Of a stretch of DNA of 64,000 bases, positions 16,812 through 59,631 are shown in pieces. The DNA comes from Craspedostauros australis (Eukaryota > Bacillariophyta > Bacillariophyceae > Mastogloiales > Achnanthaceae), in assembly GCA_026770025.1 (NCBI GenBank), contig JAMXDE010000007.1, positions 620,001 through 684,000 of the forward strand, written 5' to 3'. The position numbers were made by a program, and so were the translations under genes. The stretch's first letter is position 1; every line of letters starts with the position of its first letter. The notes under the pieces were generated by a model. That model was not told the origin of the DNA, made no database searches, and worked only from the letters and a program-made list of their open reading frames with translations.

Positions 16812-17003
16812 TGGTAAAGATTGGGATACTTGACAGTGTTCAAGACCCGACGGACTATTATCACTGTCACCGAATGATGTCGCAGCAAATCACACTGAAT
16901 TATACCACAGACACTATCCGCCGCAGATTGAAAGACTGGTCGTGCTGGGATGCATCTCAGTCATGGGTTTAAATCGTAGGCCTGTACGGAGCATCAACGC
17001 AGA

Positions 17004-17880
17004 TCACCAAATGCCGTTGCTGTCATCGAGAGGCCACGTATCGAGCGCCTTCTTGCCTTGGGACTCCGTGGCGACGAACGCAAGCTCGGTGCCTGTCTTG
17101 TCCAGCGGGACGATGGAGGGCACGCCAGCGCGACGGTCTGTACCCAGCTTGGCAGCTTCGCGACCGGACCAGACGTTGTATTGCTTCTTGATTGCGTCCA
17201 CCTCTGAGAAGGGAACCGCGATCATCTGAAGGGCCTTGGAACGCTCCAACGCAGCTTCCTCGGATTGGTCCGAGCTGACGTAGATGAATTCGATCGGCTT
17301 TCCGTCCGCCGCTGACGATTCCCTGAACGCTTTGATGTCTGGTTCGATCGATGTGCACATCGGACACCTGTGGTTGATGAATCGGGGCAGGGCCATGATC
17401 GTCGCAACCGGAGAGCCCGATGCGAGGTGGTTGACGGTTGACGGTTGATACAGAGGGACGGGGAGGTTGCGTCGAGTCAAATGGGATGACATTGATGAGC
17501 GCACAGATATGGAGTAATACTTGCTACTGTATATAATATAGTAATATAATGCAATGGAAGAGCAATACAGGCATAATAGACCATGGAATGGTAGTACAAG
17601 CAGTCACTGCAGTATTCCGACTTGCAAACCCCATTGAGTCCTCTTTTCGACAACGCTGTATTCGCATTCGTACGAGTGCAGCAGAAGAAGCTGAATAAAG
17701 CGGAGTGGGTGTGGAGCACTGATGTGTACTGGATGTCCAGACCAAGCATGCCTCACGAACTCACCAGCCAGCCGAAAAGTACAGCGCCACCCTCTTGTTC
17801 TTGAGCTTGTTCGTCAGCTCTTCGCCAGAGAGAGGGTCGCCAGTGTCAGGGCTGAACACCGAAGGCAAAGACGAAGCCAT
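17004..17880 (-). CDS. Nucleoredoxin/tryparedoxin-like thioredoxin-fold protein
   Basis: Two exons, 17880-17765 and 17367-17004, encode 159 residues. The thioredoxin fold is clear: KRVALYFSAGWCPMC active site, a nucleoredoxin-type segment reading FIYVSSDQSEEAA, then VPSIVPLDKTG containing the cis-proline. The two redox cysteines follow the junction, because the intron divides the tryptophan codon of WCPMC. The family reduces disulfides of partner proteins in the cytosol or nucleus. The ATG at 17880 gives the usual short N-terminus. An in-frame ATG at 17976 would add 32 basic, hydrophobic residues resembling a mitochondrial targeting peptide. A LINE lies 138 bases upstream of the ATG, so the ancestral promoter is now about 8.4 kb away. 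Confidence 0.88.
17368..17764 (-). other. Intron splitting the WCPMC redox motif
   Basis: On the minus strand it starts GTGAGT and ends CCACAG, 397 bp, phase 2. Splicing turns ...GGC TG + G TGT CCG into Gly-Trp-Cys-Pro. Without it the upstream frame ends after ...SAGW. Confidence 0.88.
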
Positions 17881-18001
17881 TTTCAGTTGGGTGGAAACAC
17901 GTCGTTGGATGGGAGCCGAGCGCCCGTGTGTGATTTGTTGGAATGCCAAGAGTCTTGTTCCTGTCAGCAGCAGCATGCTCTGCGAGTGGTATGGTATGGT
18001 G

Positions 18002-18018
18002 TGATGCCCACTGGAGTA
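18002..18018. repeat. Left 17-bp target site duplication of the LINE
   Basis: TGATGCCCACTGGAGTA occurs here and identically at 26360-26376. The copies bracket the two-ORF element, the arrangement produced by target-primed reverse transcription. Confidence 0.9.
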
Positions 18019-18147
18019 CAATACCAGAACCCGAAAAAACTCAAACAACGATAACACTAGTAAAACAACAAAACACAACACATCAACAAACACCAGTACA
18101 AAATCTACAGCGAATTCTACGTAACACGAACGAAATCCAAAACGACG

Positions 18148-20580
18148 ATGAAGGCAACCAAACATGTCAGGATCATGGAGGACAAAGCTGATGACGTCGA
18201 GATGGCCGAGGTGCAAGGACCAGCGGTGCAAACCACAACTCCCAAGCCACCTCCCAAGCCAAATCCGAGCCTCAGCGAGGAAGAATTGATGGAGAAACGA
18301 GGAGAAGTAGCCACAGAGTGGAAAGATCCGAACACAGCGCGGTGGAAAAAACTCAGCGACACGATCGCACACCAGGCAAAGGGATTCGAACCAGGCGAGA
18401 AGTACGGGGAAGGCGAACGATCAATGCACAACCAAGTCAAGAAGGCACTCACCAAGAAAGCCATGTGGGAGAAGACCGATACATCGATGGTGTCAGCAAG
18501 CATGCCGAAGATCAAGGAAATGACAGTCTTCTTCCAAACCGTCATGGACGGGCGTACCACGAAACTGGGGAAATCCAAAGTTCCACCAGACGATCCGTCC
18601 AGAGTAGCCATCAAGCAATTGATCGCTGATCTTTCGCTCACAGACCCAGTCCAATGCTTCACAGACACCATAAAGCCAGGAGGGGCTGTCATGATAGCAA
18701 ACCAGATGACAATTCTGTGGGCGGCAGCAACCAACTACATGGGGTGCCAATACATGGCAGAGAAACCTCCACCGGAAGTGGACTCGGGAGCAGACGCGAT
18801 GACGGTCGACAGCGACGACGACAGCTATGATCTCGTAGCTTTGGTGTCGAAGAAACCGCTCAAGCAAGCGAATCTGACGGCGTACACCACAAGCACGAAG
18901 ATCGACTCGCCAGCGCCACGAGACAAGGATGGAAACCCAAGCGTAGCAAGGGAGCCAACAGACAGCGACGGAAACTCCAACAACAATGAGACCAAAGATG
19001 ACGGATGGACCAAGCATCAGAAAAAGAAACCTCAGATGTCGAACCCAAAGTGCCGATACTACGAGAGATTCGAAATGCGCCTCAAAATCCCCAAAGGCAC
19101 AAAAACGCCAGTGAGGGATTTCCAGGAACGCTTTCGGCAATGGTACGACGAAGCCAAAGGCATGGATCAAAGCTTGACAATCAGCCCATGGTACAAGAAG
19201 AACAAGGCCAAGGGCTGCATCATCACCGACTCAGACATTCCCGCTATGTGGAAGGATCTCCGGTATTACATCGGCAGAGCCAACCCAACATCGAAAAGCG
19301 AGGACGTATACTTGCAGGTCCTGATGTCTTCGAACATTGACATGCAAGCATTCACAAGCTGGAACACAGAGCTTGAGGGTGCGTACCACGAGGGCGAGTA
19401 CGCCTACATCCAAGATCTGCGTGATGCGGAGCACACGACCGAGATAGGCTTCATGGCCTACTCCGGTAACTTCACAAAAGCGAAACAAACTCTAACAGTC
19501 ATAAATCAGCTATTGGCAGAGAAGAGAGCCAAGCTCAAAGTCGGCGGCAGGGTGAAGTTCGTGGGAAAGGTGTCCGAGGAAGTGAAGGCAAGTCACTTGC
19601 AAAACGGCGGAAGCTGGCACAATGCTCCATGGATGGCACTTCATCTACATGCGGATGTGAAAGACGCGCGCAGGGCATCAAAGCTCCTGGGCAAAATCTT
19701 CAACACCAAGGATGGCGACCGCAAAGGCCTCAACTACAGATACGTGCCCAAACCAGGCACGTCGGTTATGGGAGCGAAGACGGCGATGAAAGTTCAAGCC
19801 ATGATCCGGAAACATCAGAGCTACGTGCGCAGACTGAAGTACGAACAGCTCAAAGGTGACTTCGCGTTGGACACCAAGGATCCAGAGTCGGGCACCATCA
19901 CTCTTCGGGAGTTCCTGGCGCAGCAAACCAGCGAAGGCAATCCTCTCATCCATGACGTCAGCACAACGCACATGGCAGATGGTAAAGAAGACGCGATCCA
20001 TATCGTGGCTTTCGAGGAACGCTACGCGCAAGCGGTAGGGCTCATCCACACAATCGCAATCAGGTGTTCTACGGAAATCAACGCATCCACGAACAAGTGG
20101 TTCTCCGAAGATATCGTGGCAATGAGTTGCTCCATGATAAAGGATGACAGTGGGGAATATGTGGACGTCGAGACTGAAGAAGAAATGGACTTCCTTTTGG
20201 ACGAAGGGTTTGGAAATGTCGTCATCGAAGGCATCGACTTCATGGAGAGCGAGAGCGCATCCCCGAAGCGAAAGAAGGCCAGGCTGGAGGACGAGAGTTT
20301 CAAAACTTTTGGGACGGAATACGGCAAGTCGGCAGCTTCGTCACGATACACCATACCGGAATCTCAAACAGAGGCAGATGAAATCGAAGCGGAAATCGAA
20401 GAAGCAATGAAGATGGCAAGAGAAGCACAAGAGTTGGCGGCGACTCGAGTCCGAATGCAAGAACAATCGAGCACGATCACCAACCAAGAAGCAATCATAG
20501 CGGCACTGCGCGCCCAACTGGAAGCGTCCGCGGCCACGCCACCTGCCTCAAGCAAGGGTAGGGGCGAGGATCAAGAATAA
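18148..20580 (+). CDS. LINE ORF1 protein
   Basis: The 810-residue protein precedes ORF2 in the same element and should be the RNA-binding partner of the retrotransposition particle. An acidic, Pro-rich N-terminus leads to a central globular region (about residues 290-640) with RFEMRLKIPKG and a downstream TISPWYKKN segment. A bipartite basic stretch SPKRKKAR near residue 710 may be a nuclear localisation signal. A Glu/Ala-rich C-terminal coiled coil covers about residues 740-795. I see no CCHC knuckle and no clear RRM signature, so the nucleic-acid-binding mode is unknown. The last 80 nt overlap the open ORF2 frame. Confidence 0.85.
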   Translation: MKATKHVRIMEDKADDVEMAEVQGPAVQTTTPKPPPKPNPSLSEEELMEKRGEVATEWKDPNTARWKKLSDTIAHQAKGFEPGEKYGEGERSMHNQVKKALTKKAMWEKTDTSMVSASMPKIKEMTVFFQTVMDGRTTKLGKSKVPPDDPSRVAIKQLIADLSLTDPVQCFTDTIKPGGAVMIANQMTILWAAATNYMGCQYMAEKPPPEVDSGADAMTVDSDDDSYDLVALVSKKPLKQANLTAYTTSTKIDSPAPRDKDGNPSVAREPTDSDGNSNNNETKDDGWTKHQKKKPQMSNPKCRYYERFEMRLKIPKGTKTPVRDFQERFRQWYDEAKGMDQSLTISPWYKKNKAKGCIITDSDIPAMWKDLRYYIGRANPTSKSEDVYLQVLMSSNIDMQAFTSWNTELEGAYHEGEYAYIQDLRDAEHTTEIGFMAYSGNFTKAKQTLTVINQLLAEKRAKLKVGGRVKFVGKVSEEVKASHLQNGGSWHNAPWMALHLHADVKDARRASKLLGKIFNTKDGDRKGLNYRYVPKPGTSVMGAKTAMKVQAMIRKHQSYVRRLKYEQLKGDFALDTKDPESGTITLREFLAQQTSEGNPLIHDVSTTHMADGKEDAIHIVAFEERYAQAVGLIHTIAIRCSTEINASTNKWFSEDIVAMSCSMIKDDSGEYVDVETEEEMDFLLDEGFGNVVIEGIDFMESESASPKRKKARLEDESFKTFGTEYGKSAASSRYTIPESQTEADEIEAEIEEAMKMAREAQELAATRVRMQEQSSTITNQEAIIAALRAQLEASAATPPASSKGRGEDQE
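20501..20580 (+). promoter_or_regulatory. ORF1/ORF2 overlap, candidate +1 recoding region
   Basis: The ORF2 frame is open from just after a TAG at 20498-20500 and runs through the ORF1 stop (TAA, 20578-20580). It has no ATG until 20870. A +1 slip anywhere in these 80 nt would give an ORF1-ORF2 fusion. No known slippery heptamer is recognised, so the mechanism is open. Confidence 0.5.
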
Positions 20581-20722
20581 AGCGAGGCTGGGGGCAGGAG
20601 AAGCATCACCAACCACCCCCGCAAGCCCAACGGATGCAACCCCGGAGGAAGGGCGCCAGGAAGGGCACAACCTCCACGATCGGCACTGGGGCGACTCCCC
20701 TCGTACAAAGAGCAGTTCGGTA

Positions 20723-23700
20723 TTGAGAATAGCAGCTCTTAACGTGGGGTGCCTGCAGGCGGAATCGAAACATTGGAAGAACGACGATCTGTGGCAATGG
20801 GTCAAGCAGAAGAAATTCGACGTGGCCTTGCTATCAGAGATAGGAGTCAACTGGTCCAAGGTGGGCAAGATGAACTCGTGGAAAGCGAGAGCAAACAAAC
20901 ACGTGCATACAGAAAGGCACGCTCTGGCATACAACGAAAGAGAGAAGCTTGGTGGAATTCGACAGTGGGGAGGCACGGCATGCGTAATCATCGGAAACGT
21001 TGCAGGCAGATACAAGAGTCTGGCCAACGATCCCCGCAAACTGGGAAGGTGGACAAGCATGGCCATAAGAGGCAGACAGGACACCACGGTGCGACTTGTG
21101 AGCGTTTATGTCCCCAACAAGGGGGGTCAGAGCGCTGGCACAGTCTATAATCAGCAGGCATTGTGGTTGGAGTCCCAAGGCATCGACACTGCTCCCATCG
21201 AGCTATTAATCCAAGATTTGGAAGCAGCCATCCAGGAATGGAGGCAAGACGGAGAGGCAGTCATTGTCGGAGGTGATATTAACATGCCGGTGGTTCGCTC
21301 CCAAATGGCGACCATGATGGACCGCCAGCACATGAAGGAGGCGATCCTCAGTCGACACCCGCAAGCCCCAGGCATATCAACAAATGTGAGGGCGAATTCG
21401 AACAGGGTGATCGACGGCATATGGGTGCCAGCATCGGTACAAGTCATACGCGCAGGATACAGCGAGTTTGGAATGTGGGACCACAGAACGGCGTGGATTG
21501 AGATATCTCAAGAATCGATATTTGGATCTATCAGCAAGCCGACTCCCAAATTCGAAGGGCGGAGAGTACAGCTAAACCGACCAATCACGGTTCGAAAGTA
21601 CAAGGCCGAGGTTCGGAAGCAGTACCAACAAGCTAGGATCCCGCAACGCTTAGTGGCGCTCAGAGCAGCCATCGGAGCAGCACACACAATCACTACAGGG
21701 CAAGCAACCGCAATGGAAACCATCGATCGAGAAAGAATGAGCATCATGCTGCAGGCAGAAAGAGGAGCACGCACAATATACACTGGGCAAGTTCCATATT
21801 CTCCGGAGGTCAAACGCAGGGCGATGGAGAAGCAGTTTTGGAACCTGGCGTGGAAGCGAAGGAGAGGCAAGAAAGTAAGCTCGCGATGGTACGAGAGAGC
21901 CAAAAAGCAAGCAGGAATCACTACGAGGACGGCCACGCTCAACATGGATGAACTAGAGGATAAGCGAAAGCGAGCGCACGCACGATGGAAGACGGCGAAA
22001 AAGAACGCACTGAAACACAGACAAACATTCCTGCAAACCAGGGCAGAAGAAATGGCCAAGGCCGGGAACATCACGTCGGAAGCGGCAATAACAACCATCC
22101 AGAAGCGCGAGGAGGTGGTGGAAACGTTCAGAGCTATCCGAGCAGCAATTGGTGAACACAGCAGCGGCAAAGTAACGATGGTGATTGCCAACAACGCGGA
22201 AGGAGAGGAAGAGGTCTTCGAAAAAGAACATGCGGTCATAGCACAATGTATGAAGGCGAACGAAGCGAAGTATCGGCAGGCATATGTGACTCCCCTGCAA
22301 AACTCAGCAATGGAAAGAGAAATGAGGCAAGGAGGGGCGCAGGGCATCAAGCGGCGCTACGGTCACAGGCTGGGGCAGCACGAGGATGCCTTGATTCAAG
22401 CTCTGGCTCCAACGAACAACATACCGTGGGAGGAATCCGACATGGACGTCACGCTGGAAAGCCATCAGCGACTGTGGGCCAAGGCACGAGAGAAGACAAC
22501 TTCTGGGCCGTCGGGTTTACACTTCGGCCTGTGGAAAGCCAACGCGCAATGCGAGCAGCTAGCGCAAGTCGACGCCACCATGCGGGAGATCTCACTGCGA
22601 ACGGGCTACAACCTGGAGCGGTGGCTAGTATGCACGGATATCACCTTGCTGAAGGAACCCGGCAACTTCCGAGTCTCCAGATTTCGAACCATCAGCCTGG
22701 TGGAAGGGGATTTCAACGCCAACTTGAAATGGATAGGCAAAGTGATGATGAAGCATGCAGAGAAGCACCAGATGCTGCCCGAGGAGCAATACGGCAGCCG
22801 CAAGCAGCGAAGTGCGGCAGAAGTCAGCCTGAACAACCGGATGACGGATGACATTGTGAGGATGACGGCTGCGCCCAGTTGCATATGCTCCAACGACGCA
22901 AAAAGTTGCTATGATCGAATGGCTCACGTGCCGCTAGAACTCAGCATGCAGCGTCTCGGCGTTCCAACCACGGTGAGCCGCAGTGTCACCTCCGCCATTC
23001 AGTCCATGCAGCACCACGTTCTCACCGGATTCGGAAAATCGTCCAGAACATATCCGCGACGTGGCACAAAGCTGCAGGGTTTGCTACAAGGTCTTGGTAT
23101 ATCGCCGGCTGGATGGGTGGCCATGAGCTCTCCAATCATGCAAGCGATGGCAGCCAAAGGCTACGGGTTCGGCGCGACGAGTCCCATCACGGCAGAGACG
23201 ACCAAACTCGTGTGTTTTTCGTTCGTGGACGATACGGACCTTATTCACTCGGTCCAAGCGGACGTCGACGATCCCGAAGCATGCACGGCGGAAGTACAAC
23301 GGGTTGTGGACTCGTGGGAAGGAATGTTGAGAGCGACAGGGGGTGCTTTGGAGCCCAGCAAAAGCTACTGGTACCTCATGGTCTTCAAGTGGGACGGGAA
23401 TCAATGGCAGTACAAACGTATCGACGAACAGCCAGGAGACATCAATATCCGGCAACCCGACAGTCAGCAAAGAGCTACCCTTTTGAGACTGCAAGTGGAC
23501 CAAGCCAGGAAAGCTCTGGGAGTCATGGTTCGGCACGACGGCGTGCAAGACGACAACGAGGCATACTACACCGGGAAAGCGGAGAAGTGGGCAGACAAGG
23601 TGCGGCGGAGTCGCATGCTAAGAACACACGCGTGGATCGCCATGAAGGCCACCATCTGGAAAACTCTGGAGTATCCTTTGACCAGTTCCACATTCACGAA

Positions 23701-26191
23701 GGAGGCCACAGAGAGAATCATGAGGCCGGTGCTCCAGGCAGCGTTGCCAGCGGCTGGAGTCCAACGCAATATGTCGCGAAGGATAGTGTTTGGCCCTCTC
23801 GAGCGTTTTGGATTGGGCGTGCAACACCTCTACTACGTGCAGGTGGCAAAGCACCTCGAGATGCTCGCAAGGCACTGGGGGCAGCACACCCTCACTGGAA
23901 AGCTCATGAGGACCTCACTGGAGATCATGACGTTGCAGGTGGGGATGCCAGAGGTATTCCAACAGGACCCAGCGCGGTGGGAACATCTAGCGACGGACTC
24001 GTGGATGAAGGCGGTATGGCAGGAAGCAGCAAGGGTGGGCGTAACAGTGCAGTGGGAGCAAAGGATACTGCATGCCCCTCGAGAACATGATGCGCCAATC
24101 ATGGAGCGCGTCAGAGCCCTCAAGCTCGACAGGAAAGTCGAGCAGGCCATCAACCTGTGCCGCATCAAAAAGCGAGTCTTCTGGATGTCGGATGTCACGT
24201 GCGTAGATGGAGAACACCTCCACCCGGCAGCGGAGAGTCCGGAACTCATCCCGCTCAGAACATCCCGAATGGCATGGCCACCGATAGGATCAGTAAGTCC
24301 GGCCAACTGGAGGCAGTGGGGCCAAGTCGTTCGAAGGCTGTTTCAAGTCTCCAGGACAAGAGTCGCCCGGCTGGCCCGTCCGTTGGGCAAGTGGAGGCAG
24401 TACTCATCGCAGGTGCCGGCGGTTCTATGGGATCCGGGAAGCGATCGTCTCATGCGGCGCGAGCAACCCGAGTTCTGTCTCCGGCGGGTTCCGCGGCGAA
24501 GGCGCGCCAAACTCTACGAGCCATCCGATGGTGCAGTGGGAATGACAACGCATATTATCGATGGCTACACGGAAGGAGATCGGATAGTGGTTACGGGAGC
24601 TGGTGAAGGCTTGCAGGCGGTGCGCGCCGACGAGGCGACAGTGGATCAACTACTGCGCGAAATGCCACAGTCAGCAAAATGGTCAGTGCAGCGCTACGAA
24701 AAGGCAGGTGAATGGGAAACGATAGCGGCGTCCATACGGATAGGTTCGGCAGTAGCCTGCAGCGACGGCTCAGTGGCGGAAGGGAAAGGAGCGTCTGGGG
24801 CGATCATTCTGGCCGATCATGAAGGACGCGGAGCACAGCTACTTGTCCTCAACCTGGCACCAGCGACAAACGAAGTCATGCAATCGCAGCGGGCGGAACT
24901 GGCTGGAATATACGGAGTGCTGGTGATGCTCAATGCCATATGCATGGCCTACGGGATCGTCGACGGCGCCATTGTTCTTGGATGTGACAACCTGGGGGCT
25001 CTCAAAGCCCTGGATCACGAGTGGGCTCTGTCCCCCAAGTCCACGGATGCCGACTTGCAGAGGGCGGTACGAACACTGAGCAGCACGATACCCATTACAG
25101 TACAGGGACGGCATGTGAAAGGCCATCAGGACGACGACGCCGGATGGGGCAACCTAGACCGGTGGGCACGCATGAATGTGGTGGCTGACAAGTTGGCCCG
25201 CATCGCGCGAGAGTCGATACCGGTGAGCGAGGTCCACAGTGGGCACATAAACGGAGAGCACGTATCGTTCGTCTCGCTTGGGAAAATCACCAGGATAACA
25301 TACTCGGCTGTGTCGCGAGGTCCACTATGCGAAGGCATGGTTCACGTCCTTGGGCAACGAGGTGTGGTACGGCGGCCGGAACAGGTCGAGTGGGAGATCG
25401 TCGGCCGGTCCTTGCGAGAGCTGGATCAGGTCAGGCGGCTTCTTACGGTCAAGCTTGTTACCGGAGAGGCGCCAGTGGGCAAGCGCATGAAGCAGTGGGG
25501 GTTACGGAAGTCCGACCTGTGTCCTAGCTGTGGCAGACAGGAAGATGCGACCCATTTCTGGCGTTGCCCTGGAGCGGATCGACTTGGAGTTTCGAAGCGG
25601 CGTCTTCGAGAGCTCGGGGGATGGCTGCGACGTTACCCTACGGCGCCGGCGGTCACAACGCTGCTGTTGACAATGCTACGGAGTCAGCTGGAAGGGTCCA
25701 CATATCTGCAGATGTCCTCTCCCGGTAGTCCTCTCCACGAGGCAGCCGTGAGTCAGGAGTCGGTAGGCCCGCAAGCGTTGCGGAAGGGCATCCTGTCGTC
25801 GAAATGGATAGCGATCCAACAGCAGTTCCTACAGCAGCAGAAGACCCGGCGAACAGCTCCGACATGGGCACAACAGGTCGTCCGGCGAATATGGCACATC
25901 GCCTGGGAGCACTGGTCGGCCAGAAATGACGCCATGTTCCAGGGTGACAGCTCGGCCGAGTCCGAAATGGTCCACGCCCTCCACGAAAGGGCTACATCAC
26001 TTCGGCTTCGCCTCGAGAAAGACCCAGATTCCTATCGACGACTTTTGCAGACGGCTCCGGCAGCAGAGGCGCAAGTTGCACAGGTTGCGGTGTGGGTGGA
26101 GCAAGCAGCACGGCAATTGGGTGAGGCGGCCGCCACAGGCGTCCTCTTCCGATGGCTACAGTGCAGGCATGTGAACCCGGAACCCAGCTAG
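20723..26191 (+). CDS. LINE ORF2: endonuclease, reverse transcriptase, RNase H
   Basis: The frame encodes about 1822 residues from the TTG at 20723, where the endonuclease fold begins (AALNVGC). The endonuclease also shows LLSEIG, GGDINMP and a MWDHR segment. The reverse transcriptase has motif A as NDAKSCYDR (about 724) and the catalytic FVDD at 834-837. The RNase H has D1348, E1392, D1422 and HVKGHQDDD. A C-terminal knuckle CPSCGRQ...H...C lies near residue 1603. There is no ATG before the endonuclease; the frame is open back to 20501, overlapping ORF1 in the +1 frame. The first internal ATG (20870) would remove the catalytic Asn and Glu region. Translation therefore probably uses frameshifting, reinitiation or a non-AUG start. 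All catalytic residues are intact. Confidence 0.94.
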   Translation: MRIAALNVGCLQAESKHWKNDDLWQWVKQKKFDVALLSEIGVNWSKVGKMNSWKARANKHVHTERHALAYNEREKLGGIRQWGGTACVIIGNVAGRYKSLANDPRKLGRWTSMAIRGRQDTTVRLVSVYVPNKGGQSAGTVYNQQALWLESQGIDTAPIELLIQDLEAAIQEWRQDGEAVIVGGDINMPVVRSQMATMMDRQHMKEAILSRHPQAPGISTNVRANSNRVIDGIWVPASVQVIRAGYSEFGMWDHRTAWIEISQESIFGSISKPTPKFEGRRVQLNRPITVRKYKAEVRKQYQQARIPQRLVALRAAIGAAHTITTGQATAMETIDRERMSIMLQAERGARTIYTGQVPYSPEVKRRAMEKQFWNLAWKRRRGKKVSSRWYERAKKQAGITTRTATLNMDELEDKRKRAHARWKTAKKNALKHRQTFLQTRAEEMAKAGNITSEAAITTIQKREEVVETFRAIRAAIGEHSSGKVTMVIANNAEGEEEVFEKEHAVIAQCMKANEAKYRQAYVTPLQNSAMEREMRQGGAQGIKRRYGHRLGQHEDALIQALAPTNNIPWEESDMDVTLESHQRLWAKAREKTTSGPSGLHFGLWKANAQCEQLAQVDATMREISLRTGYNLERWLVCTDITLLKEPGNFRVSRFRTISLVEGDFNANLKWIGKVMMKHAEKHQMLPEEQYGSRKQRSAAEVSLNNRMTDDIVRMTAAPSCICSNDAKSCYDRMAHVPLELSMQRLGVPTTVSRSVTSAIQSMQHHVLTGFGKSSRTYPRRGTKLQGLLQGLGISPAGWVAMSSPIMQAMAAKGYGFGATSPITAETTKLVCFSFVDDTDLIHSVQADVDDPEACTAEVQRVVDSWEGMLRATGGALEPSKSYWYLMVFKWDGNQWQYKRIDEQPGDINIRQPDSQQRATLLRLQVDQARKALGVMVRHDGVQDDNEAYYTGKAEKWADKVRRSRMLRTHAWIAMKATIWKTLEYPLTSSTFTKEATERIMRPVLQAALPAAGVQRNMSRRIVFGPLERFGLGVQHLYYVQVAKHLEMLARHWGQHTLTGKLMRTSLEIMTLQVGMPEVFQQDPARWEHLATDSWMKAVWQEAARVGVTVQWEQRILHAPREHDAPIMERVRALKLDRKVEQAINLCRIKKRVFWMSDVTCVDGEHLHPAAESPELIPLRTSRMAWPPIGSVSPANWRQWGQVVRRLFQVSRTRVARLARPLGKWRQYSSQVPAVLWDPGSDRLMRREQPEFCLRRVPRRRRAKLYEPSDGAVGMTTHIIDGYTEGDRIVVTGAGEGLQAVRADEATVDQLLREMPQSAKWSVQRYEKAGEWETIAASIRIGSAVACSDGSVAEGKGASGAIILADHEGRGAQLLVLNLAPATNEVMQSQRAELAGIYGVLVMLNAICMAYGIVDGAIVLGCDNLGALKALDHEWALSPKSTDADLQRAVRTLSSTIPITVQGRHVKGHQDDDAGWGNLDRWARMNVVADKLARIARESIPVSEVHSGHINGEHVSFVSLGKITRITYSAVSRGPLCEGMVHVLGQRGVVRRPEQVEWEIVGRSLRELDQVRRLLTVKLVTGEAPVGKRMKQWGLRKSDLCPSCGRQEDATHFWRCPGADRLGVSKRRLRELGGWLRRYPTAPAVTTLLLTMLRSQLEGSTYLQMSSPGSPLHEAAVSQESVGPQALRKGILSSKWIAIQQQFLQQQKTRRTAPTWAQQVVRRIWHIAWEHWSARNDAMFQGDSSAESEMVHALHERATSLRLRLEKDPDSYRRLLQTAPAAEAQVAQVAVWVEQAARQLGEAAATGVLFRWLQCRHVNPEPS

Positions 26192-26268
26192 AAGGCAGCG
26201 ACGCATACACGCACACATACATACATACATACGTACAACGACAGAGCAATCTATGGATTCCGTGCTCC

Positions 26269-26287
26269 CTTCGCGCCAGGCGCGAAG
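26269..26287 (+). other. GC-rich hairpin 1 in LINE 3' UTR
   Basis: CTTCGCGCC-A-GGCGCGAAG is a perfect 9-bp inverted repeat 72 bases from the element's 3' end. It is a candidate recognition structure for the element's own reverse transcriptase, as described for stringent-type LINEs. Confidence 0.7.
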
Positions 26288-26307
26288 TTGAAAGGAGGCG
26301 GAGAAAA

Positions 26308-26320
26308 GCGCCTTCGGCGC
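26308..26320 (+). other. GC-rich hairpin 2 in LINE 3' UTR
   Basis: GCGCC-TTC-GGCGC forms a 5-bp stem 20 bases after the first hairpin and 39 bases before the element's 3' end. Confidence 0.65.
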
Positions 26321-26359
26321 AGCCTCATAAGAGGGTTTAATCTTTGCGTTTTTATTTAT

Positions 26360-26376
26360 TGATGCCCACTGGAGTA
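26360..26376. repeat. Right 17-bp target site duplication of the LINE
   Basis: Identical to 18002-18018. It follows the A/T-rich 3' end directly, so the AAT microsatellite after it belongs to the host flank. Confidence 0.9.
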
Positions 26377-26382
26377 GAGCGT

Positions 26383-26383
26383 C

Positions 26384-26417
<34 letters not shown>
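26383..26417. repeat. (AAT)n microsatellite
   Basis: About twelve uninterrupted AAT units directly right of the target site duplication. Confidence 0.95.
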
Positions 26418-26704
26418 GAATAGTTGTGTTGAACGAAGATGAATGTACTCGTGAGTGGTGCGGAGAGGAAGCTGTTGTTGTCCGCTTTCGTATCTTTCTG
26501 TTGCTCTCTTCGTTCTTGTTCGTTCGTGCGGCTGCAAGGGTGCTGTTGAGATTCTTGGAACTTCCACAGATGGGACTGGGATTGGGCTCTTGCGTTGTAG
26601 AATTCTGTCGCCCTCACTCTCTCTGTCTCCGGAGAGAGTGAGAGATCTGTAAATGCATCCTTGGATGTATGCTGATAGCTATAACGGGTATGGTACGATT
26701 ATGT

Positions 26705-26724
26705 ATGGTACCATGCGCGTAGAC
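26705..26724. repeat. Dispersed intergenic motif, copy A
   Basis: ATGGTACCATGCGCGTAGAC; it recurs at 34431-34450 with one mismatch and partly, in reverse orientation, at 13181-13194. Confidence 0.7.
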
Positions 26725-26760
26725 GGGTGTGACATGGGCATTGTGCGGACGTAGACAGGT

Positions 26761-26776
26761 AGAGAGACGTCTCTCT
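26761..26776. other. Perfect 16-bp palindrome at SLX1 3' flank
   Basis: AGAGAGACGTCTCTCT is its own reverse complement and ends nine bases beyond the SLX1 stop codon on the minus strand. It could form a hairpin in the 3' UTR. Confidence 0.75.
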
Positions 26777-26785
26777 CCCCCCGCT

Positions 26786-28243
26786 TTAGTCTAGTTCAAT
26801 CACTTCTCGGTTGCTGCATGTGACGTGTTCATGGATACTTGTCTGCCCGATCGGCTGTTGATGGGCGCCGTGGAACATTCCATCGCTGTCTTCGTCAGTG
26901 TCGTCCTGCATCATGAAGAGAGGATTGAAACTGACGTCGCTGTTGGTTGATTGGTCATCGTGATTTGTTTCGTGCGGTCCTGTCACTGCCGGAGCGTTGC
27001 GGCCTTCCTGTGCTCGTTCTAGTGCTACTGCTGGTACTCGCGACCGTGGTGTTGGTTTTGGTGATGCCGTTGCTGTTCTTGGGTGTTGTGGGTGAGCACT
27101 GCTCGTTGCATGACTCTGCCACGGTGGATAATTCATGTTATCTTTTTCATCATCATCATGATCATCATCTTTTTCTTCATCATCTCCTGCTGCTGCTGCT
27201 TCTATTTGTGCTTCAGTATCACACGTTTGTGGCAACCCCTCGACGACTTCTGGAATAGCGTCTCTCGAAGTGCTTTCAGATGCATCCGTGCTGTGAGAAC
27301 AGCAGGCAGCATTAAGCCACATGAAATCTGCGCCATCGCTATCTTCATCCATGCTAGTATCGTCCGCGTTGGAGCCGAATGGCGCTTTGCACGATGGGCA
27401 CATTCCACTCTGATTTTCCGCGTGAATGTCGGAACAAACTTCGTGCATCATCTCGCCGCAAAAATCACAGACAGTGGCACCAATCTCCTCCGCTGCACGG
27501 ATCGGACGACGGCACCACATGCAATCGTTGGTAGGGATGCTGCTGGTGCATGGTTGCTCTTGCAGTGGGCACCCCCCGGCTTGTGCTCTGTCAACGGCTG
27601 CAGGCCTCGGTGCGGGCACTGGCATTGGCGCACGTACTCGTGGGGACTCTTCGGGTTGTTCATCATTCCTTAGACCTGCTCTGCTGGGCTTTCTCGTCCG
27701 TTTTGCATGCTGTTTCATAAATGGTAACTCGGATAGATGGCTCGCAACTTCCAGTTCGATGCTCTGGGGAAAGAATTGCCGATCCGACTCGATCAGTTTG
27801 AGGACCCGTGTCTTGTACTGCTGCTCGAAGAAGTACACGGTGAGGTGAGAGCAACCGCAGATCTCTTGAACGCAATGCGTCAAGAGCATGTGCATGATCG
27901 CCAGCTGACCGACAGCACCGCGCTTGCGTTTCATGGTCTTGGCATAGTCGCGGCCCAACCGCCCTCGCACGGCGATGGATCCATCGCAGTGCTGCCAGGC
28001 CCATTCGAACTGCAGAGCCGACTTTTGCGTGGGGAACCCATGAATGATGGCGACGAATCTCCATGGCCGTCCGGATTTCCTGGTGCGGAATGCGCCGCCG
28101 TGCTTCAAGTCGCCGTTGTGCTGCCGCAATCGCCGGTGTGGGTTGGTGGTGAAGCCGACGTACGTCTTGATGGGATGCTTGGGATCGTCGCTTTTCAGCA
28201 GGTAGCAGTGGAAGTGACGCGTTGGCTGTGCCTCATCCTCCAT
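26786..28243 (-). CDS. SLX1: SLX1 structure-specific endonuclease subunit
   Basis: This is the 485-residue catalytic subunit of the SLX1-SLX4 nuclease, which cuts branched DNA such as Holliday junctions and flaps in the nucleus. The N-terminal GIY-YIG domain starts with FHCYLL and TYVGFT. It has the catalytic-type Arg in RRLRQHNG and the family segments GRPW and ALQFEWAWQH containing the catalytic Glu. A C-terminal RING/PHD-like zinc domain follows, with CMWCRRP, CDFCGEMMHEVC and CPSC. The domain order is that of SLX1. The remainder is an acidic, low-complexity extension much longer than in yeast or human SLX1. The last residues (VIELD) resemble a SUMO-interacting motif. The ATG at 28243 leaves only a short leader before the nuclease fold. 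Confidence 0.92.
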   Translation of the reverse strand: MEDEAQPTRHFHCYLLKSDDPKHPIKTYVGFTTNPHRRLRQHNGDLKHGGAFRTRKSGRPWRFVAIIHGFPTQKSALQFEWAWQHCDGSIAVRGRLGRDYAKTMKRKRGAVGQLAIMHMLLTHCVQEICGCSHLTVYFFEQQYKTRVLKLIESDRQFFPQSIELEVASHLSELPFMKQHAKRTRKPSRAGLRNDEQPEESPRVRAPMPVPAPRPAAVDRAQAGGCPLQEQPCTSSIPTNDCMWCRRPIRAAEEIGATVCDFCGEMMHEVCSDIHAENQSGMCPSCKAPFGSNADDTSMDEDSDGADFMWLNAACCSHSTDASESTSRDAIPEVVEGLPQTCDTEAQIEAAAAGDDEEKDDDHDDDEKDNMNYPPWQSHATSSAHPQHPRTATASPKPTPRSRVPAVALERAQEGRNAPAVTGPHETNHDDQSTNSDVSFNPLFMMQDDTDEDSDGMFHGAHQQPIGQTSIHEHVTCSNREVIELD

Positions 28244-28460
28244 CTCGCGTCTCTCCTCTTGTGTGCATCGGCGACGTATGGGACATTCGCAAGACCAGAT
28301 TGAAGCTGGAATACGTACGGCAGGGTGGAGTCTGGAATGGTTTGGCTTGGTATGGTACGGTATGGTAAAGTATGGTATTCTATGATGGAGTGGAATAGAA
28401 GATGATGGTAGTATAGTCGAGTACTATGGAGTATGCAGGTTCACGTCATGCTTGTGATTG

Positions 28461-54561: not shown

Positions 54562-57500
54562 ATGTCGGAATCGAAGCCGGAAAAGTCCAAGCGCGGGAGC
54601 TCCATCCGCCGGCTCATGAATGGCTTCGGAAAGAGCAGCTCCAAGAAGGAGGATCGCAGCGAATCGTCGGAGCAGGCGAGCATCCTGTCTGGGACGACGC
54701 CCAGCGATGCCGTCACGGCAGACGACGCCTCGCAGGTCTCCAGGGACAGCCGCAGCGACCGCAGCGATGCGGAGCGCCGTCGGTCCAGGAGCGAGGCCGG
54801 GGCCCAGCGCAGCGGCGGCAGCAGCACCGCAAGCACGAGCACCTCGGCCAGCACCACCAGCGAGAGGCAGTCCAAAAAGAAGAAAAAGGGCGGCTTTGCT
54901 CGCCGCCTGCGATCGTTGTCCCGCTCCAGATCGAGGTCTGCCAGTCGCCGACAGAGGGATTCAGGCGACGACGACGATCAGCCGGACATCATCATCACCG
55001 TCAGATCCTGCCGCAGCGATGACTACTACAATCAGAAGGCACCCGGCTCCACATCCAAGCTGCCGCGAAAGGCGCCGCAGAATCTCAAGCGGTTCCACGA
55101 GCTGGCTGTCGGACTCAAGGATGCCTACGCTGCGGTCGGGAAGACTCCCACTCAACCCAAGAAAGAAGGCGAGGAGGGTGCTGAGAACCTCAGCCAGTCG
55201 GAGTTCAATGCCAGAATGGTCCTGTGGGAGTTCATTGGCAACATTGATTTCGTAAGTTGTATGCAACCGTCCATCATTCATCCATCATGCACCACTCATC
55301 ATGTATCATCCATTCATCATGCATCATCCATTCATCATGCATCATCCATTCATCATCTTGGAACACGCGCACCACACCACAAGCCATTGCACTTCATCGC
55401 ATTGCACCACGCTGCATTGGATCACATGAACGAAGATTTCATACTGCTCTGTGCCATGTGATAAATGTTGGTGTTGCATCACATTATCCTTGTACGCCCG
55501 CCGATGACATAGCATCATCTATCGCAGCGATCAGCGTTATTCTCCCGTCTCACACATTTGATCCATCACATCATTGCCTTAAAAATACTTGCTCTGCTCT
55601 ACTCTGCTCTCCATGCACTCCTCTCGCAAATGCCACCCGCACATGCACAGCTTCTGGCTCTGGTCGACGAGGTGGCTGTGGACAACGCCACCCGAGGTGT
55701 GCTCAAGGATGACACCACTTTCAAGGGACTGCGCGACGTCATCAAAAAATGCAACAAGGTGCTGGAGGACATGCTTGTCATCCGTGAGCGTCGCTACCAG
55801 CTCAACTTCCGTCTACCGTCCCCCAACAACGCCAAGAACATCGAGCGCATCAAATCATGGAACGACAAAGTAGAGAAGGCGGTCGGTGCCGTCACGGAAG
55901 GTGGCTTCGACGGGGGCGAAAGCAGCGACTCCGCGATGGACTCGGACAGCGACGCATCCAGCGTCTCCACTGCGGACACATCAGGTAGGGGAAGCGTATT
56001 CAGCCGTGGTCGTCAGCTCCTGCCAGCCGCGGGCAGGGTGCGCGCCAGAAGAGCAACGCCCACACCGACCCTACGAAACCGCCGTTCCTCCAAGGAGGAA
56101 GACACGACCAAATCGGCGGGAGGAGCCGCGGAGGATGGATTCTCCACGCAGACCAACCCGACCGGAGCAGGCAGCCTGGCAGTGCAAAAGACGCAGGTGG
56201 AACCGCAAGGTGCCATACCCAACGGCCTCGTCACAGCCTCAGCCAGTAAACCGAGCCAACCCGTGCAGCAACAGCAGGCGCAAGCCATCAAGCCAAAGGA
56301 CGAGCTCGTGGACGTCATCCGCGGACTCAGATTAGAGAAGATGAAGAACAGGGAAGCCAACCAGGAAAACGATCTCAAGGAGCTCAAGCCGGACTGGAGA
56401 CCGAAGGCGGACATCCCATCCGCCGTTCCGAAGCTGCCGATAGAGTATATCCACCGGCATCGCCTGATGAAGCAGGTGGTGAGCTGTCTGATGGATGAGT
56501 CCATGCGCGAGGCTGACGACGGAACACCGAACAACTCCATCGTTACATCGATCACATCCAGGCACGGCGACAAGGCAGGCAACGGCAAGACAATCCTCGC
56601 TGTTGCCGCGATCCAGACGGTGGAGATCCGCGAGAGGTTTTGCGATGGCATCGGCTGGATCAAGCTGGGGCGTGGCCCGCTGACGGAGAGGGATGTTCGC
56701 AGACTCTACGAGGAGCTTTACAGGCAGCTCATCTTGAAGGATGCCGATCTGGACGACATCCTCGAGGAGGCCAACGAGCTGTCGCAAGAAAATGGTGACG
56801 GCAACGCTGGAGGCGCAGGCAACTCGGCCATTCCATCAAACACCTCGCACTCCAACGGCGACACCCAAGCGCAGAACGGGTCGAAGTCAGACGCCCGCAA
56901 ACAACGCATCGCGCAGCTGGCGGCAAGCCGGCGACGATTCCAAGGCGGGGACATCGAAGCCATCAAGGAGGATCTGGGTCGGCTCATCATCAGGAAAAAG
57001 GTGCTCATCTGTCTCGACGATGTCTGCAGAGTGGAGGATGCCAAATGGTTCATCTTTGACAACAAGATACTGAACGGATTGCGACCACAACGCAGCAAGA
57101 AGGGCGACGACCCCCACCCTCTTCGAATCCTCATCACGACCAGAACGCCAAACCTTCTCGGTCCAGGCCTCGTGCAGGAAGTGTTCGTTCGCATCCTCTC
57201 GGAGCACGAAGCGGTCAAGCTGCTTCTGTCCACGTCTGGACGACGTCCATACGGTGGCAAGAACTCGGCCGTTTTCAACCAAGCCAAGTTAATCGTCAAG
57301 GGCTGCGGCAATTCGCCCCTTGCCGTGCGAATCTCAGGCAGCATGCTGAGGCAAAGCAACCGAAGTTGGAACATCTCGTCGCCCGCCTGGTCATCGCTCA
57401 TCCACCAGTGCCGCCTCAATCTCGAGGAGGCGTCTCAGCTGCGGAGTTTTGTGAACGCTGTCAATCGCGTGGTCGACCTCAGCTTCTTCACCATCAGCGA

Positions 57501-59631
57501 AGTGCGCACCCGCGTGGCCCTCCGACGGTGCTTCGTGTCGTTCGCCATGGCCTTCCGCAACAATGACTGGATGCTAGCAGGCAAGGGAATACCGCAGTCG
57601 GTCGTCCTGCGCGTCTTTCGCACCATCATCGCATCGGACGAAGGCCTCAAGGACACGTCCGGGAGCCAGATTTTGTCGTTGCTGGAAAAGCTGAATCTGA
57701 TCGAACGCGCCAGACATGGGTGTTCATCGCGCGGGACGCTGCGGTTGCCGCACAGCCCATCCGCTGCTGGTGACCAGCGGGACAAATCGGAACGATCCGA
57801 CTCGGACTGGGACGATGACATCGAGCCACGTCGCTACTCTGGCATCCAGCAATTCTTCGTCATGCACGACTCCCTGAAGGCGGTGGCTGAAGAGATGGGG
57901 CAACGCAGCACGCCAACGCTGTCGCCTGATGCCGATAACTTCACCTCGTACCTGTCCAAAATCGAAGAAGAGAATGAGTTCAGCAAGGAATCCAGCTCTC
58001 TTTGGGGTGCACCACTGCGTTTCCTCACGCAGCAATTCACAGCGCCACTCCCACGGGGTGGCATGCAGCACGACGCAGCGCACAAGCTCGTCGTGTCGTC
58101 GCTCCTCAACATGGGAGACGACGTGGAGCAGACTGGATCCGTGGCAGAAGCGCTCAAGAACGGCCAGCTCGATGTGTTGGCCTTACCAGGTGGCGGTCGA
58201 ATGGAGGAGTATCTCACCGCCTTCCTCCCATCGCATCTCATGCAATGCCAGGCGTTCACCGTCGCAGGCGAGGTCCTCGCAGATGCACACTTCATCGGAC
58301 GGCGAGTGCAGGCCCTCGGCGTTGTGGAGGCCAGCGGTCGCCACGTTGCGGATTTGCAAGAGCTGCGACGCCTTGGTAGCAACATCACCATTCCCATCAC
58401 CATCGACCACAAGGATTCGGCAGCAGCTGCATCGTCGAAGAACGGATCGAATGGTGTGGACAGATCGTCGACGCACATGACAACGAAATTCGACGTCAAC
58501 GGAGTCGTTCGCGATGGATCGAGGCTCTTGATCGACGAGGTCTACAGAGTTGCCAACATGAAGGGAGAGGGCAACTCGTCCGATTCTCTCGGAATGGCAA
58601 TGTGCTTGGCCGCGGTGGGCGATGGTCTGCTGAAGGCCCGACAGCCGAAGGATGCCATGCTGCGACTGGAGGAGGCCGTTGGAATTTACAAGGGCGTCCT
58701 TGGTTCTTACCACACCAACGTCGCCGATGCCTTGCATTCTGTCGCCAAGGCGTTGGTCAAGCTGGGCGAAACGCGCGTGGCACTGTTGAAGTTTGCCGAA
58801 GCGGCTCGTATTTACGAAGCATGCAACGCAACCTTGCACTTCAACTCCATCGCCAACGCGCAAAGCCTCGCGTCGTTGCTGGTGGATCTCGGTGACATGC
58901 AGAAGGCCCAATCCATGTTCGAAGAAGTTATCTCCATGAGACGCACAGTCAACGGCAGCCACTGCGTCCCTGTTGCCAAGACTATCAACTCGTACGCCAT
59001 CCTCCTCGCCAAGCACGGGAAGATGAACGAGGCGCTGGAGCATTACGAGGCTGCGAAGGCGACGTACGGCGCCGTGCCCGCCCAGCTCATCCGCGATCCG
59101 GAATTCGAAATCAAGTGCAAATACGACGTGACCTTGATCAATCTCAACATCGCTTCCATCCGGTCGAAGAAGGGAGATCTGAATGCTGCCATCGAATGTT
59201 ACGAGGACGGCGTCCGTGGACTGCGCGAGTACGAGAGCGCGCTGGCCGATCTGCACAAGGGTGCATCGAAACCAGTGGACGGCAAGAACACCGCGCACAA
59301 GCACTTGATCGCGGCCTTGGGCAGAATCGGATCGCTCAAGCTGAAGATCGGCGACAACGAAGGCGCCCTCGTGGCGTACATGACCTTGCTCCGCGAAGTG
59401 AAGGACGACAGCCCGGCTGCCTCGCACACCGAAAAGGCCAAGGCCCACATCAAATGTGCGACCATCTTCCGCCAGCAGAACGCAGAAAACAGCCACGATC
59501 AATCCATCGCGCATCTGCGCGAGGCGCTGGACATGTACACCGCGATTTTCGGGCCGGAGCACAAGGACACTTTGGCCATTGCTTCGTCACTGCGCCAGTG
59601 GCTGTCCGAAGACCAGAACCTCCAGCGCTAG
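54562..59631 (+). CDS. NB-ARC (STAND) ATPase with C-terminal TPR repeats
   Basis: Two exons, 54562-55251 and 55651-59631, give 1556 residues. The first 160 residues are a disordered Ser/Arg-rich basic region. A helical segment spans the intron and runs to about residue 320, then a low-complexity linker follows. The NB-ARC core shows a P-loop GDKAGNGKT (536-544), Walker B VLICLDD (681-687), an ILITTRT sensor and an NSPLAVRISG GLPL-like segment. A winged-helix-type region with a MHD-like IQQFFVMHDSL segment is next. Residues about 1210-1550 carry kinesin-light-chain-type TPRs (ADALHSVAKALVKLGE; SLASLLVDLGDMQKAQ). STAND proteins are ligand-gated switches that oligomerise on activation. The ligand and output here are unknown; no TIR, CARD or protease effector is recognised. 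Confidence 0.88.
55252..55650 (+). other. Intron of the NB-ARC-TPR gene
   Basis: GTAAGT donor, ATGCACAG acceptor, 399 bp, phase 0. It contains an 18-bp tandem repeat. Confidence 0.85.
55300..55353 (+). repeat. 18-bp tandem repeat in intron
   Basis: Three copies of a unit reading CATCCATTCATCATGCAT (first copy with a variant) lie within the NB-ARC gene intron. Confidence 0.85.

Follow-up and report, generated by a model that had tools for sequence, protein, structure and literature searches.

Little is understood of the route by which ribosomes reach the second open reading frame (ORF2) of long interspersed nuclear elements (LINEs), and this applies even to human LINE-1, for which an AUG-independent start has been suspected (PMC5009743; this and the other publications are cited by accession and from excerpts). 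For the victorivirus AalVV1, which has neither AUGA nor UAAUG, peptides show that translation begins upstream of the first AUG, perhaps by non-AUG or AUG-independent reinitiation, and the ORF2 of PvRV is in the -2 or +1 frame (PMC6631646). Non-AUG reinitiation has also been reported or suspected for feline calicivirus and influenza B virus (PMC3035654). Here we describe a LINE of the diatom Craspedostauros australis, located in a window of 64,000 nucleotides (nt; assembly GCA_026770025.1, contig JAMXDE010000007.1, positions 620,001 to 684,000), whose ORF2 has no AUG ahead of its endonuclease domain. Comparison with its relatives suggests that ORF2 is probably made by coupled termination and reinitiation without an AUG, where we infer both a restart rather than a frameshift and the codon at which it would occur. 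The layout of the window copy is as follows.

18019-26359, + strand: full-length LINE copy (a retrotransposon without long terminal repeats, LTRs), sequence read directly and ends compared with other copies
18002-18018 and 26360-26376: 17-bp target-site duplication, directly at the ends of the element
18148-20580, + strand: ORF1 from its first ATG, with the stop TAA at 20578-20580
20501-26191, + strand: ORF2 frame, +1 relative to ORF1, open from 20501 to TAG at 26189-26191
20726-26191, + strand: body of ORF2, with an apurinic/apyrimidinic (AP)-type endonuclease, a reverse transcriptase (~22676-23377) and weak RNase H and zf-RVT matches

Carrying a reverse transcriptase, an endonuclease and a target-site duplication, the element is a LINE with an AP-type endonuclease. 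According to an earlier sequence-only reading of this DNA, ORF2 is open in the +1 frame from 20501, shares 80 nt with the end of ORF1 and lacks any ATG as far as 20870, where a start would delete the catalytic Asn and Glu region of an endonuclease located from about 20726. The layout is borne out: in the window copy the two frames overlap by 80 nt, ORF2 has its first in-frame ATG at 20870, and the motifs RIAALNVG (20726), with which the endonuclease begins, and LLSEIG (20828) precede it and would be lost. The ORF1 frame itself is open from 18064, upstream of its first ATG at 18148.

The genome (74.8 Mb, 90 contigs) gave at least 40 scored DNA matches to 20400-21400, and the junction alignment comprises the window copy, 39 fetched copies and 5 further members of the clade, 45 in total, with DNA identities of 65-100% and ORF2 protein identities as low as 41%. 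All loci compared are from this one genome and mutually related; among viral contigs, scanned for relatives from elsewhere, none was confirmed. The stop at the ORF1 junction is kept in 44 of the 45 copies (UAA 38, UAG 6; in one it is lost as AAG), and the +1 frame of ORF2 is open across the position of that stop in all 45. The overlap length is variable: L014, L048 and L052 (loci are numbered with the prefix L) carry an ORF2-frame stop 29 nt before the ORF1 stop, so that in these copies the event giving access to ORF2 can take place no earlier than 26 nt ahead of the stop. Both ORFs are open at full length in 8 of 21 long copies (the window, L011, L014, L016, L018, L019, L024 and L025), and in three of these, the window, L016 and L018, an in-frame ATG is missing from the whole interval that starts 60 nt ahead of the stop and reaches to the endonuclease; all three possess matching flanking repeats, as read by eye. 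As a separate observation, ORF1 of L010 carries an insertion of about 1.1 kb (TGTTGG...CCTAACA) between short direct repeats, which by eye has the look of a solo LTR.

In that interval 24 of the 45 junctions have no AUG, while an in-frame ATG occurs there in 21, at six places (numbered from the first base of the stop) of which none is common to all copies.

-35: 4 of 45 copies
-5, as AUGAAUAA: 5 of 45 copies
+28: 1 of 45 copies (L021)
+52: 7 of 45 copies (L030-L034, which are the -5 copies, plus L049 and L051)
+121: 4 of 45 copies
+142, two codons short of the endonuclease: 9 of 45 copies, including the four +121 copies

An AUG overlapping the ORF1 stop is absent in 40 of the 45, the window among them. 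In a tree of the endonuclease (58 rows; 8 of 66 were omitted for an internal stop or insufficient length) the window's clade is set apart by a branch with support 91/74, several supports being moderate, and the -5 and -35 classes each form a single nested clade. Conservation across relatives, the check recommended by the sequence-only reading, holds for the stop and the +1 frame but not for the length of the overlap, and the lack of an AUG extends to 24 of 45 copies. The same reading had counted relatives with an in-frame ATG upstream of the endonuclease as evidence against an AUG-less start; such relatives literally exist (21 of 45), but because their ATGs are scattered over six places, with the -5 and -35 classes each nested, they do not account for the 24 AUG-less copies. 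An ATG just before the endonuclease as the general start of ORF2 was rejected, being present in 9 of 45 copies only.

Evidence for translation ahead of the endonuclease comes from the pattern of substitutions in one segment.

20582-20725, + strand: N-terminal stretch of ORF2 before the endonuclease, with translation in the ORF2 frame probable from ~20641 or earlier

Between 20641 and 20724 the ratio of nonsynonymous to synonymous differences (pN/pS) in eight copies was 0.39 (0.23-0.65) in the ORF2 frame, compared with 0.99 and 1.15 in the other frames. Four copies without an ATG ahead of the endonuclease gave 0.35 (0.17-0.71), and the five copies with the AUG at -5 gave 0.29 (0.12-0.64); in three deep AUG-less copies the ORF2-frame value of 0.37 was not clearly below the 0.49 of the ORF1 frame. 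Judging from these ratios, selection acts at the protein level, in the ORF2 frame, on the stretch ahead of the endonuclease, so that translation would start upstream of ~20641, well before the first ATG. The window copy could alternatively be merely defective, or ORF2 could start at a downstream AUG with the upstream frame open by chance, as the ATGs at +142 (9 of 45), +52 (7) and +28 (1) might suggest. We consider this highly improbable, since the selection is seen even in the four copies that have no ATG there, and since three AUG-less copies (the window, L016 and L018) are fully open in both ORFs with matching flanking repeats. A private defect or a chance open frame was rejected on the basis of the clade-wide stop, the +1 frame and the selection.

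Moreover, the ORF1 stop is flanked on both sides by predicted RNA structure, from which it keeps the same alignment distance.

20540-20564, + strand: upstream hairpin, 20540-20548 pairing with 20556-20564 around the loop 20549-20555; separated from the stop by 13 nt
20586-20627, + strand: downstream stem, 20586-20594 pairing with 20616-20620 and 20624-20627; begins 5 nt after the stop
20603-20607 with 20633-20637, + strand: tentative pseudoknot stem

In the upstream hairpin 7 of 9 pairs have changes on both sides and 87.5% of alignment cells are paired. The downstream stem is paired in 98-99% of cells, with two pairs changed on both sides, in two lineages. The tentative pseudoknot stem (93.5% of cells paired) has one double-changed pair and three invariant pairs out of five, and an automatic consensus fold pairs 20635-20637 elsewhere; the downstream structure is perhaps a pseudoknot. 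For the whole structure, 93.1% of cells pair among the 45 junctions (40 distinct), and 10 pairs are changed on both sides versus 3.8 in shuffles, a control that ignores relatedness, and at most 4 with the partners slid, identical rows being counted once (40 of 45). As the structure was drawn from the very alignment scored for covariation, a search for five held-out loci, which are independent of that choice, is the cleaner test: a structure model built on the first 40 copies recovered all 5 held-out clade members (E ≤ 1.2e-25), and at E ≤ 1 it hit none of the 33 relatives that bear an AUG. One weak extra match (window 56910-56983, E 0.34) is regarded as chance, and Rfam at gathering thresholds gave no match in window positions 17000-27500.

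Synonymous variation, scanned in 14 copies for ORF1 and 11 for ORF2 out of the 21 long copies, is likewise low at the junction. The 12 lowest 15-codon windows of ORF2 (1869 codons) all start in its first 13 codons, and the lowest window of ORF1 (838 codons) is its last 15 codons, narrowly under one near codon 63. The conserved structured block around the junction spans about 130 nt. Separately, ORF1 has a second stretch of low synonymous variation at codons 63-77 (window ~18253-18297; 15-codon value 0.222).

Such a structured, conserved block would also suit internal ribosome entry or a separate ORF2 transcript, in which it would act as entry site and non-AUG start independently of ORF1 translation. 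We regard this as quite improbable, because the fixed position of the block around the ORF1 stop, and the overlap of start and stop in related families, point to coupling. Splicing that joins the two frames, or a trans-spliced leader that brings in an AUG, would find some support in the AG dinucleotides at 20602 and 20624, which are kept in 40 of 40 copies. It is nevertheless very unlikely: as far as canonical introns are concerned, there is no GT-AG pair joining the frames whose two ends are both kept in at least 30 of the 40. A conserved GT-AG intron joining the frames was thus rejected after comparison of 40 copies, and the spliced transcript that the sequence-only reading had set against its own proposal finds no such intron in them.

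The state of the junction outside the clade is different. A protein search scored 90 genomic places, of which 33 loci (L053-L085), chosen for diversity, represent related LINEs outside the clade. In 31 of these an AUG overlaps the ORF1 stop and ORF2 is in the -1 frame (AUGA in 25, AUGUUAG in 6, including L063, where a separate AUGA match sits upstream); the other 2 keep AUGATAG with the ORF1 frame broken. AUGA is also present in L084 and L085, the most distant related pair, and the AUG at the ORF1 stop is therefore plausibly the ancestral state. When labelled by the AUG overlapping the stop alone, the tree needs two changes, as if a single loss of this AUG at the clade's base had been followed by a single regain, in a different frame, in L030-L034. 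No AUG is present at the stop in the branches that split off deepest within the clade, L040/L049/L051 and the group of L036-L039, L041, L042, L048, L050 and L052. In 19 of the 33 related loci, separately aligned, a short hairpin ends 10 nt before the stop, with 92.9% of cells paired. Independently of these points, L062, the one fetched locus among them, and seven other places have identical scores to the protein query, suggesting a recent burst of an AUGA-type LINE.

Taken as a coupled restart, the process would run as follows. A ribosome would finish ORF1 at the UAA at 20578-20580; the upstream hairpin could re-form behind the terminating ribosome, and the downstream stem would be positioned at the mRNA entry side. 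Held by both structures, the post-termination small subunit may then restart in the +1 frame, most likely at the triplet at -5 and otherwise at an invariant CUG.

20573-20575, + strand: proposed non-AUG restart codon AAG, the -5 triplet in an NNGnnUAA geometry (CUG or AUG in relatives)
20588-20590, + strand: alternative candidate restart codon CUG, in frame and within the downstream stem, present in 45 of 45 copies

Among the 45 junctions the -5 triplet is AAG in 29, CUG in 10, AUG in 5 and AAU in 1, the AUG of the nested subclade falling precisely on this triplet. The downstream stem begins at +14 from it, and a hairpin is reported to help non-AUG starts at a distance near +14 (PMC3542737). 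The invariant CUG is followed by G at +4 in 45 of 45 copies and preceded by a purine at -3 in 42; the three copies lacking that purine belong to the five with the AUG at -5, which are close relatives.

The main rival is a programmed +1 frameshift at the ORF1 stop, as in antizyme, in which the stop would slow the ribosome and the downstream structure, perhaps together with the upstream hairpin, would stimulate the shift to give an ORF1-ORF2 fusion; we consider it possible, though unlikely. The frame would fit in 45 of 45 copies, a stop is at the junction in 44, and the limit set by L014, L048 and L052 (the last 26 nt) suits a shift as well as a restart. The stem begins 5 nt after the stop, compared with 3 nt between the shift site and the pseudoknot of mammalian antizyme, and shift sites containing a stop can be very shifty (PMC5009743). 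However, none of nine known shift motifs is present in the 45 junctions, in agreement with the sequence-only reading, which had recognised no standard slippery site. Furthermore, the codon in the P site alternates between Glu and Asp codons (last ORF1 sense codon GAA 29, GAC 8, GAU 7, UAU 1), the stop is UAA or UAG and the next base is any of the four, while the overlapping AUG of the related families, in another frame, would be superfluous for a fusion. A fixed geometry of stop and structures, combined with a variable last codon, stop type and next base, favours a termination event independent of tRNA slippage, and together with the AUGA of the related families this geometry makes coupled termination-reinitiation the best reading. 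Frameshifting, termination-reinitiation and a non-AUG start had been put forward from the sequence alone as the options; these were the right three, among which we favour reinitiation at a non-AUG codon, again inferring a restart rather than a shift.

Several observations weigh against coupled reinitiation at a non-AUG codon. Two hallmarks of such coupling, overlapping ORFs and an RNA element near the stop, are present here, whereas a third, an AUG as restart codon, is absent. In most eukaryotes AAG serves poorly as a start codon. It does not appear in a list of appreciable non-AUG start codons (excerpt of PMC3542737). The calicivirus motif UGGGA occurs in just 4 of 45 copies within the 46 alignment columns preceding the stop. 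An AUG or near-cognate codon at the -5 place has a chance frequency of 46% (131 of 287 comparable ORF1 positions), so that its recurrence there is weak evidence, and by eye the conservation of amino acids seems to start only at the CUG. In 15 and 5 more divergent copies the selection before the endonuclease is weaker (ORF2-frame pN/pS 0.67 and 0.74, versus 0.94-1.03 in the other frames). The single window sequence folds no better than shuffles (z -0.13), and the case for the predicted structure rests on covariation; the hairpin of the related families has a single compensatory pair. L049 and L051, on the deepest branch of the clade, have an AUG 52 nt after the stop, like L030-L034. Finally, the kinship of all loci within a single genome has to be considered.

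A bolder proposal, which we put forward as doubtful, is that this LINE clade has lost the AUG at the ORF1 stop and that a two-sided RNA structure sets the ribosome on the second frame, where any triplet (AAG, CUG or AUG) would start; such a restart might perhaps do without initiator-tRNA pairing. What sets this LINE clade apart is the missing AUG at the stop, together with conserved RNA structure flanking that stop. No description of a LINE clade lacking an ORF2 AUG was found in the literature searched, most subscription journals lying outside the reach of that search. The earlier suggestion that the mechanism may be new is toned down here because termination-reinitiation, including its AUG-independent form, is already known; what stands of it is the AUG-less LINE clade with its flanking structures. 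With AUG-bearing and AUG-less relatives in one genome and a compact junction, codon-independent restart and frameshifting should be directly separable.

As regards the remainder of the element, the reverse transcriptase domain of ORF2 was matched by RVT_1 (E 1.3e-09) and the AP-type endonuclease at its N-terminus by Exo_endo_phos (E 1.4e-04, bit score under the curated cut-off). The best PDB match of the modelled endonuclease region was a variant of the LINE-1 endonuclease (E 8.9e-07), the model being of low confidence (mean predicted local distance difference test score 52.8) with its first strand from residue 47 (~20720). A PDB sequence search with 1006 residues from 20582 onward gave no match at E 0.01, and ORF1 had no Pfam match at E 0.01. 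No LTRs were seen in the flanks of the window LINE as read by eye, with no repeat search made. An (AAT)n run lies near the 3' target-site duplication (~26384-26417), and an ORF with a GIY-YIG nuclease domain (26786-28423, - strand) is encoded just past the 3' end of the LINE. Elsewhere in the window, a large ORF at 55513-59631 (+ strand) has NB-ARC and TPR matches.

Among known systems, antizyme shares with the window clade a stop codon, a +1 frame and a structure just downstream (PMC5009743); unlike antizyme, the clade has no conserved shift codon or next base, and its related families use an overlapping AUG. LINE-1 has an AUG and a 63-nt spacer between its ORFs (PMC5972666), in contrast to the overlap found here. 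The start 5 nt upstream of the stop recalls AUGucUGA of the calicivirus RHDV (rabbit haemorrhagic disease virus; PMC3542737), and in the calicivirus and influenza B systems with a termination upstream ribosome-binding site non-AUG starts are tolerated (PMC3542737, PMC3035654); unlike these, the window clade has no conserved UGGGA upstream (4 of 45) and has a conserved downstream stem. SART1, a LINE of the silkworm, likewise makes its ORF2 by termination-reinitiation at an overlapping stop and start and requires a downstream structure (cited at second hand in PMC5972666); SART1 uses an AUG (UAAUG), whereas the window clade has none and has a second hairpin upstream. A structure directly upstream of the junction is also a feature of stop/restart in victoriviruses (HvV190S, AUGA; PMC6631646). 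Compared with these fungal RNA viruses, to which no homology is claimed, the window clade adds a downstream structure and has AUG-bearing cousins in the same genome.
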